NCBI RefSeq assembly: GCF_015169395.1
Contig: NZ_CP063458.1
Location: forward strand, 3,472,001 to 3,536,000
Reading direction: 5' to 3'
DNA: 64,000 bases
Source of the DNA: Humisphaera borealis
GTDB lineage: Bacteria; Planctomycetota; Phycisphaerae; Tepidisphaerales; Tepidisphaeraceae
Shown: positions 6,494-7,818 of the stretch, in pieces
Numbering within the stretch: position 1 is the stretch's first letter
How the letters are laid out: each line of letters begins with the position of its first letter
Program-made: the position numbers and the translations under genes
Notes under the pieces: generated by a model
Told to the model about the DNA's origin: nothing
What the model saw: only the letters and a program-made list of their open reading frames with translations
Database searches by the model: none

Positions 6494-6825
6494 CTCACTT
6501 TTCTGTTGAACCTCGCCCCGCCGCATCGTTAAGCTTGCACTCGACACGTCCAGGCCCGCAGGGCTGACGATCATTTCGCGGTTCGTTTGTTTGGCCGACG
6601 CGTTGCCAGGCAACCAGACACCTTGTCTCCAACACATCGTGTTGCTGCCGGCACCGGAACATCTCGGACTCGGCCGAGGAGTATGACAAATGACTTCACG
6701 TTCGAATTCGGTGGTGATGCGCCCCAATGTCGCCGGCTGATGTCGCCGGGAGGGCTCGGGTCAGGTACGTCCGGCATGAATGCCGGCTTGACACCCGGCC
6801 CCGGTCCGACGACACCAACGCCGGT
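6494..6825. other. Intergenic region before ispE with a small hairpin
   Basis: About 330 bp with no convincing gene. It contains a perfect 16-bp palindrome at 6771-6786 (CCGGCATGAATGCCGG). The ispE frame stays open through it up to 6727, but these codons do not resemble IspE and are treated as leader. Confidence 0.6.
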
Positions 6826-7818
6826 ATGCCCATTGGAGCCGAAACCGCCGTGCCGAACGCCGTCAGCGTCGACTGTCCCGCGAAGATCAATCTGCACCTG
6901 CGCATCGGTCCGCCCCGGGCGGACGGCTTTCATCCGCTGATGTCGTGGATGACGACGGTCGGGCTCTTTGACACGTTGACGATGCAACTTTGTGGCGCAG
7001 GCGTCCCGCCTGCGGCAGGCGAGACGCCTACGCCACAATCGCTTATTGACCTCACGTGCGATCCCCCGATCGTGCCGAACGACGACCGAAACCTCGTCGT
7101 GCGGATGATCAAAGCGTGGGCGCAACGCCGGTCCGACGCCGGGCAGGCGGCCGTAGCGGGCATCCGCGCGACGCTCCTCAAACGAACACCCGCCGGCGCG
7201 GGTCTTGGCGGCGGGAGTTCAGATGCGGCGTGTGCGCTGCTGGCGGCCGAGCGACTGATCGCCGGCGAGCCGCCCCTGACAACCGACCAGATGGCCGAAA
7301 TCGCCGCGACACTGGGCAGCGACATTCCGTTCTTCTTCAGCGCCCCCAGCGCCGTCTGCACCGGCCGGGGAGAGATCGTCCGGCCGATCGCGCCGCCGGC
7401 GGCGAAATGGGCCGTGCTGATCCTGCCGCCGATCCACATGCCGACGCCCGATGTCTATCGCAAGTTCGACGCGATGGGCCTCGGGCGGCAGAAGGATGTC
7501 GAGACCGAGCCCGACTGGGCCGCCTGGGCGAAACTGCCCGCGGCGAAGCTGATGACCATGCTCGTGAACGACCTGGAGGCTCCGGCGTTTGCGATCCGCC
7601 CCGAGCTGGAGGCGATCCGCCTGAAAGCGGAACGAAAATCCGTCCGCCCGGTGCGCATGAGCGGCAGCGGGTCGAGCCTGTTCACGCTGTTCGGCGATGA
7701 GCGCACTGCGACCGAAGTCCGCGACTATCTGCGGATTCATCTGCGGGAGTTCGGGATTGAGGAGCAAGCAGTGATGGTTGTCGGGGTTGGAGTGCCGATC
7801 ATCCCGTCTTCGGCCTGA
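6826..7818 (+). CDS. ispE: 4-diphosphocytidyl-2-C-methyl-D-erythritol kinase
   Basis: IspE phosphorylates CDP-methylerythritol in the non-mevalonate isoprenoid pathway. The protein shows the GHMP kinase fold: the substrate motif CPAKINLHLRI at about residues 17-27, the glycine-rich ATP loop TPAGAGLGGGSSDAA, and a C-terminal SGSGSSLFTLF. Length is 330 residues, longer than the usual 280-300. Part of the excess is a short insertion (CGAGVPPAAGETPTPQ) encoded by a 47-bp palindrome at 6991-7037. The start is uncertain: ATG 6826 is chosen, and GTG 6850 with an upstream GGAG is possible. No neighbouring isoprenoid gene is present. Confidence 0.9.
   Translation: MPIGAETAVPNAVSVDCPAKINLHLRIGPPRADGFHPLMSWMTTVGLFDTLTMQLCGAGVPPAAGETPTPQSLIDLTCDPPIVPNDDRNLVVRMIKAWAQRRSDAGQAAVAGIRATLLKRTPAGAGLGGGSSDAACALLAAERLIAGEPPLTTDQMAEIAATLGSDIPFFFSAPSAVCTGRGEIVRPIAPPAAKWAVLILPPIHMPTPDVYRKFDAMGLGRQKDVETEPDWAAWAKLPAAKLMTMLVNDLEAPAFAIRPELEAIRLKAERKSVRPVRMSGSGSSLFTLFGDERTATEVRDYLRIHLREFGIEEQAVMVVGVGVPIIPSSA
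6991..7037. repeat. 47-bp palindromic element inside the ispE reading frame
   Basis: Left arm TGTGGCGCAGGCGTCCCGCC pairs with the right arm ending GACGCCTACGCCACA with two mismatches. It adds about 16 codons in frame between two normal IspE segments (LTMQL and LIDLTCDPP), so the gene stays open. Confidence 0.85.

Follow-up and report, generated by a model that had tools for sequence, protein, structure and literature searches.

Why does ispE, the gene for an essential kinase of the planctomycete Humisphaera borealis, contain a palindrome that is translated along with the rest of the protein? The gene (4-diphosphocytidyl-2-C-methyl-D-erythritol kinase; 6727..7818, plus strand) lies in the window, by which we mean the whole 64-kb stretch of DNA that was analysed, and scores 164.8 bits against TIGR00154 (cut-off 138.7). 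The GTG at 6850 is its likelier start because homology begins downstream of that position. A single copy of ispE was found in the genome. The initial annotation had described a palindrome inside this kinase that kept the frame, and both the TIGR00154 match and an open reading frame that runs continuously across the palindrome confirm this. The palindrome itself is real, but its extent had to be corrected from 47 bp (6991-7037) to 49 bp (6990-7038), with arms of 22 bp that differ by 2 mismatches around a centre of 5 nt. The window has no second inverted repeat of this class, and this one is read through in frame as CGAGVPPAAGETPTPQ. An automated repeat search of 6900-7150 returned no match, though direct comparison shows the palindrome there, and an Rfam scan of 6700-7300 gave no family at its gathering score. 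Folding as RNA was far better than that of shuffled sequences (z = -7.0 on the plus strand and -10.1 on the minus strand; 0 of 200 shuffles equally good), with a predicted sense-strand hairpin of -38 kcal/mol.

Is the palindrome peculiar to ispE? The genome, a single contig of 7.19 Mb, contains 43 sites matching the half-element TTGTGGYGCAGSCGTCYCGSCTGC with at most 3 mismatches (21 on the plus and 22 on the minus strand), against 2 for a reversed-pattern control. Many of these copies are intergenic, as the initial annotation had suggested they might be. For a sister subtype, TTGTGGTGCAGGCTTTCCAGCCTGCA, the same threshold gives 11 sites, again against 2 for its reversed control. A covariance model was built from 12 copies taken from loci L001-L015, leaving out L007 and L013, which are without outer arms, and L008, which has a degenerate half. 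It gave at least 96 matches (E <= 0.1) at no fewer than 52 places, counts that are lower bounds since scoring covered 150 of 13,425 first-look candidates. Of the 21 copies measured among these 52 places, 20 are inverted pairs whose outer ends can both be recognised; in the other, L105, one end has decayed. The remaining places hold another subtype, single units or degraded units. The ispE copy scores 70.1 bits on the plus and 67.8 bits on the minus strand.

A full copy consists of a GTGG tag, an 8-bp stem and a 3-nt loop, followed by an inverted partner of the same design. In ispE, the left unit (6992..7014, plus strand) has its tag at 6992-6995, its stem at 6996-7003/7007-7014 and the loop TCC at 7004-7006. 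The right unit (7014..7036, minus strand) has its tag at 7036-7033, a stem with mismatches at 7032-7025/7021-7014 and the loop TCT at 7024-7022; base 7014 is common to both. Does such a unit fold as one long hairpin or as two short ones? One stem pair alternates between G-C and C-G across the 12 copies, in the first hairpin 6 against 6 and in the second 7 against 3 with 2 unpaired, amounting to 6 and 3 double changes, respectively. A model of two local hairpins pairs 97.2% of cells, which no shuffle equals, while a single long hairpin pairs 89.5% and scores below its shuffles. We rejected the long hairpin as the family structure, because nearly every copy breaks 2 of its 24 pairs (10 and 11 copies of the 12, respectively). 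The ispE copy, atypical in being near-symmetric over its full length, can itself form the long hairpin in predicted folds. Because the local pairs covary and the long-hairpin pairs fail, the unit behaves, as judged from these alignments, as two REP hairpins, that is, as a head-to-head REP dimer, and is REPIN-like. The small stem-loop carries the tag of the GTAG superfamily in its GTGG form, copies are dispersed in large numbers through one genome, and two inverted REPs form one unit, as in a REPIN.

Several published systems resemble this one. GTGG variants of the tag are listed in passages of PMC3733652 and PMC2817692, the latter including REPs of Pseudomonas fluorescens SBW25. The REPINs of P. 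fluorescens likewise have an inverted REP doublet as their unit, but part of PMC3116915 describes the doublet as a single extended hairpin whose REPs are 71 or 110 bp apart; here, covariation is local to each stem, and in most copies the two stems mismatch. The group 3 REPtron Sm of Stenotrophomonas maltophilia also has a tetranucleotide followed directly by an 8-bp stem and a 3-nt loop; its tag is GTAG and experiments demonstrated that its RAYT cleaves it (PMC8266576, in the section concerned), whereas the present family is known from sequence alone. Closest in habit is GTAG-20 of Opitutus terrae (Verrucomicrobia), which shares with the ispE copy the tagged stem-loop, the head-to-head dimers, the PVC superphylum and a tag that is mutated to GTGG in most units. 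Passages of PMC3733652 report intragenic REPs of both the GTAG and CGTC superfamilies, with many GTAG-20 dimers coding for 20-30 residues compared with about 16 for the ispE insert; the organism is different, and the likeness is one of described architecture. Since intragenic dimers are described there, the ispE case is a further example of a published phenomenon.

Variants of this architecture were also seen. At L002, L012, L136, L138 and, in part, other loci, REP dimers are enclosed by an additional, longer pair of inverted arms (about AATGACTGTGCGTGAATC ... GAATCCCGCACAGTCATT), giving a larger MITE-like unit; these arms occur in a subset of copies only and are absent at ispE. At L129-L132 and L135, REP halves are part of a repeat flanked by TTTTCCGGGCGG and ACCGCCCGGAA, which resemble terminal inverted repeats. 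A second genome, G002 (L328-L367), has sister REP dimers of the form GTGGTGCAGGCTTTCAGCCTGC..GCAGCCTGAAAGGCTGC, the two stems usually one G/C flip apart; none of the 41 places checked there showed convincing coding bias on both sides.

Do other IspE proteins have the segment? The initial annotation had named its absence from the ispE of sister strains as the sign of an insertion, and in the related loci checked it is missing: none of the 29 other IspE loci has a covariance-model match inside the gene, and the weak matches at L075 and L085 (17.0 and 16.2 bits) fall beyond the limits of the ORF. In an alignment of 27 IspE proteins, the segment is confined to that of the window; the closest relatives are 58-59% identical. 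The loop concerned has 30 residues here and a median of 17 in relatives, with a range of 15-35 in 26 sequences (the 35 being that of L075) and of 15-22 in 35. The 26 are those of the 29 relatives that passed the motif filter, which L086, L088 and L089 failed. The claim that the palindrome adds 16 codons thus holds approximately: the loop is longer than the median, but removing 16 residues leaves 14, one below the smallest relative. Such an undershoot could reflect the loss of a few host codons, or else a net gain of fewer than 16 codons. The same variability of length would allow the loop to have expanded in place, with its match to the repeat family arising by chance. We consider this highly improbable, as the two arms match the half-element with 0 and 1 mismatches (the 1 in the right unit) where the reversed control finds 2 sites in 7.2 Mb, and the copy matches the model with 70 bits, a score that is partly circular because ispE is among the 12 model sequences. 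An AlphaFold2 model of the protein (mean pLDDT 92.1) has the IspE fold, matching 4emd and others, and places insert residues 48-63, at a pLDDT of about 60, between strands 30-48 and 66-70, where E. coli IspE has a short turn. As modelled, the palindrome encodes a low-confidence surface turn and simply lengthens a loop.

Other genes of this genome contain in-frame copies as well. One lies in an ORF that we take to be recN from its conserved C-terminal motifs (Pfam SMC_N falls just under its cut-off), and another in the linker of an ABC permease/periplasmic-binding-protein ORF (PF02653, PF13407). Both use the same peptide frame as the ispE copy, both sites are length-variable among relatives, and the element was absent from the relatives checked, which do possess the linker of the permease ORF. 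A degenerate in-frame copy in a GT/sulfotransferase ORF (L113), which had no match in 25 relatives, may be there by chance. We rejected the openness of the element in six frames as a special adaptation, as 28% of shuffled same-half palindromes are open in all six. A length of 1 mod 3 was found in 4 of 4 intragenic copies and 3 of 17 others (p = 0.006), a rule that is expected by construction because intragenic status was assigned by an unbroken ORF. Could the segment nonetheless be a selected functional part of IspE, acting either as a regulatory RNA hairpin for ispE or through the loop itself, and not a neutral passenger? The very stable RNA hairpin in a coding region and the preserved frame and openness would agree with such a role. 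The same element stands in recN, in the ABC fusion and at intergenic sites, it is absent from other ispE loci and the loop varies in length among relatives, and we regard a selected function as improbable.

RAYTs are the class of transposase thought to move REPs, and the genome has 11 Y1_Tnp loci. One of these, L035, encodes a RAYT of 201 aa (NF047646, 77.9 bits, just under the cut-off of 80) with GTGG-REPs on either side; these belong to the sister subtype GCAGGCTTTCCAGCCTGC and not to the GTCYCG subtype of ispE. The GTGGTGCAG head occurs near only 1 of the 11 loci, and none of the 11 is flanked by the exact REP subtype of ispE. In genome G005, the RAYT closest to that of L035 sits amid covariance-model matches of up to 54 bits. 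Hairpins tagged GT[AG]G occur at 0.62/kb in 30 RAYT loci, some of which overlap, compared with 0.08-0.09/kb in IspE, RecN and ABC control loci. The enrichment is not exclusive to this tag, because hairpins tagged GA[AG]G are also raised at RAYT loci (0.34/kb, against 0.03-0.06/kb in controls). Two tandem, near-identical RAYT-like genes (L029/L030, G000:C1:4158951-4160170) have no GTGGTGCAG repeats nearby. Part of PMC8266576 reports that REPs in single-stranded form are cut by RAYTs and that the cut can be guided to CA or CC by a GTGG tag; by analogy, the REPs of this genome would be cleaved by a RAYT too.

The ispE insert is, in our judgement, very probably a REP dimer of the REP/RAYT kind: a mobile pair of hairpins that is not autonomous. 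A RAYT, being an HUH-tyrosine transposase, would have moved it as folded single-stranded DNA, and its landing site would have been the turn of a beta-hairpin on the IspE surface. It was presumably retained because it introduces no stop in the frame used, leaves that frame intact and encodes a flexible loop rich in Ala, Gly and Pro, so that IspE with the insert would still be functional.

How does this reading compare with the Rickettsia palindromic elements (RPEs), which the initial annotation had invoked? RPEs, too, insert within ORFs, leave the frame unbroken and occupy solvent-exposed regions, according to the relevant part of PMC3767692. What survives of the earlier comparison is a mobile in-frame insert with sister copies and absence from relatives; the identity with RPEs does not. 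The GTGG tag, 8-bp stem, 3-nt loop, head-to-head pairs and presence of RAYTs, one of them flanked by GTGG hairpins, are of the REP/RAYT kind. To our knowledge, neither a GTGG tag nor a link to RAYTs is known for RPEs. The elements of Rickettsia belong to another lineage and are longer, and we rejected membership by size, with RPEs at 100-150 bp (PMC3767692, in part) and the core copies here, GTGG-tagged pairs of 8-bp hairpins, at 49-52 bp. Moreover, RPE-4 and RPE-6 are treated in passages of PMC3733652 as CGTC-tagged REPs, a superfamily other than GTAG. That the insert is an RPE-type element, or belongs to an unrelated, convergent family of in-gene palindromes with a mobiliser of its own, is in our view a slim prospect, and the Rickettsia link is an analogy of behaviour.

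Several RAYTs lie in exceptionally long open reading frames. In one case, some 54 kb ahead of the window (L323/L369, G000:C1:3415225-3417942, minus strand), a complete Y1_Tnp domain lies in frame inside a DinG/XPD-like helicase ORF (Helicase_C_2, DEAD). Among 23 helicase loci, 6 carry the full domain, and G004 also has it, cut by a contig end, so that the carriers are H. borealis and six relatives. The remaining loci comprise 13 relatives with a short loop, 2 (G002 and G023) with REP-like remnants, one perfect GTGG hairpin each, and 1 truncated before the site. Perfect GTRG hairpins in inverted orientation bracket the RAYT domain in G022, G021 and G006, and two identical inverted hairpins tagged GTGA bracket that of this genome; that scan gave none that was both perfect and tagged in G020 and G011. 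All 7 helicase RAYTs retain the HUH histidines and the tyrosine. Across six of them, identity is lower in the RAYT part (43-61%) than in the helicase part (66-75%). In a tree of the 19 of 28 rows that passed a motif filter, the 7 form one clade against 12 other RAYTs (support 99/98). Because of this clade, the sequences fit a single RAYT insertion kept by descent, a reading made alongside a host helicase tree in which the G005 row was wrongly trimmed and the deep forks have no clear order.

RAYT domains also occur in other ORFs. At L299 (G005:C367) and L301 (G010:C15), they lie in frame at different sites inside DUF1156-type ORFs, and at L299 REP dimers are in frame around and within the RAYT as well. 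At L039 (G000:C1:930440-930601, plus strand) and L308 (G023:C559), in two genera, a RAYT stands at the C-terminus of a ThiD2/thiamine-phosphate-synthase (ThiE-like) ORF. Long proteins of this sort may have been passed over: part of PMC6006769 describes a survey that discarded TnpA proteins which were 'unexpectedly long', treating them as fusions or errors of annotation. In the open-licence literature searched, we recognised no account of a RAYT inside DinG or of a palindrome in a planctomycete ispE.

What does this mean for the family? An essential enzyme appears to tolerate a mobile pair of hairpins that is translated as part of a loop, in a phylum from which there are few descriptions of the kind, and the ispE finding points to a series of REP transposase genes in frame inside a host helicase, which is rarer than the ispE dimer. 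We suggest, tentatively and with rather less than even confidence, that the REP/RAYT system may live habitually in frame within host proteins of this planctomycete family, the ispE insert being the transposase-less form of the REP-RAYT-REP unit translated in the DinG-like helicase. If so, one insertion would have given rise to a lasting chimera of HUH nuclease and XPD-type helicase, and the helicases of relatives would span the steps from empty loop through REP remnant to full REP-RAYT-REP. Were the chimera translated as a single polypeptide, it would join an HUH nuclease to an XPD-like helicase in nature, and would illustrate one way for mobile elements to provide proteins with new linkers and domains.
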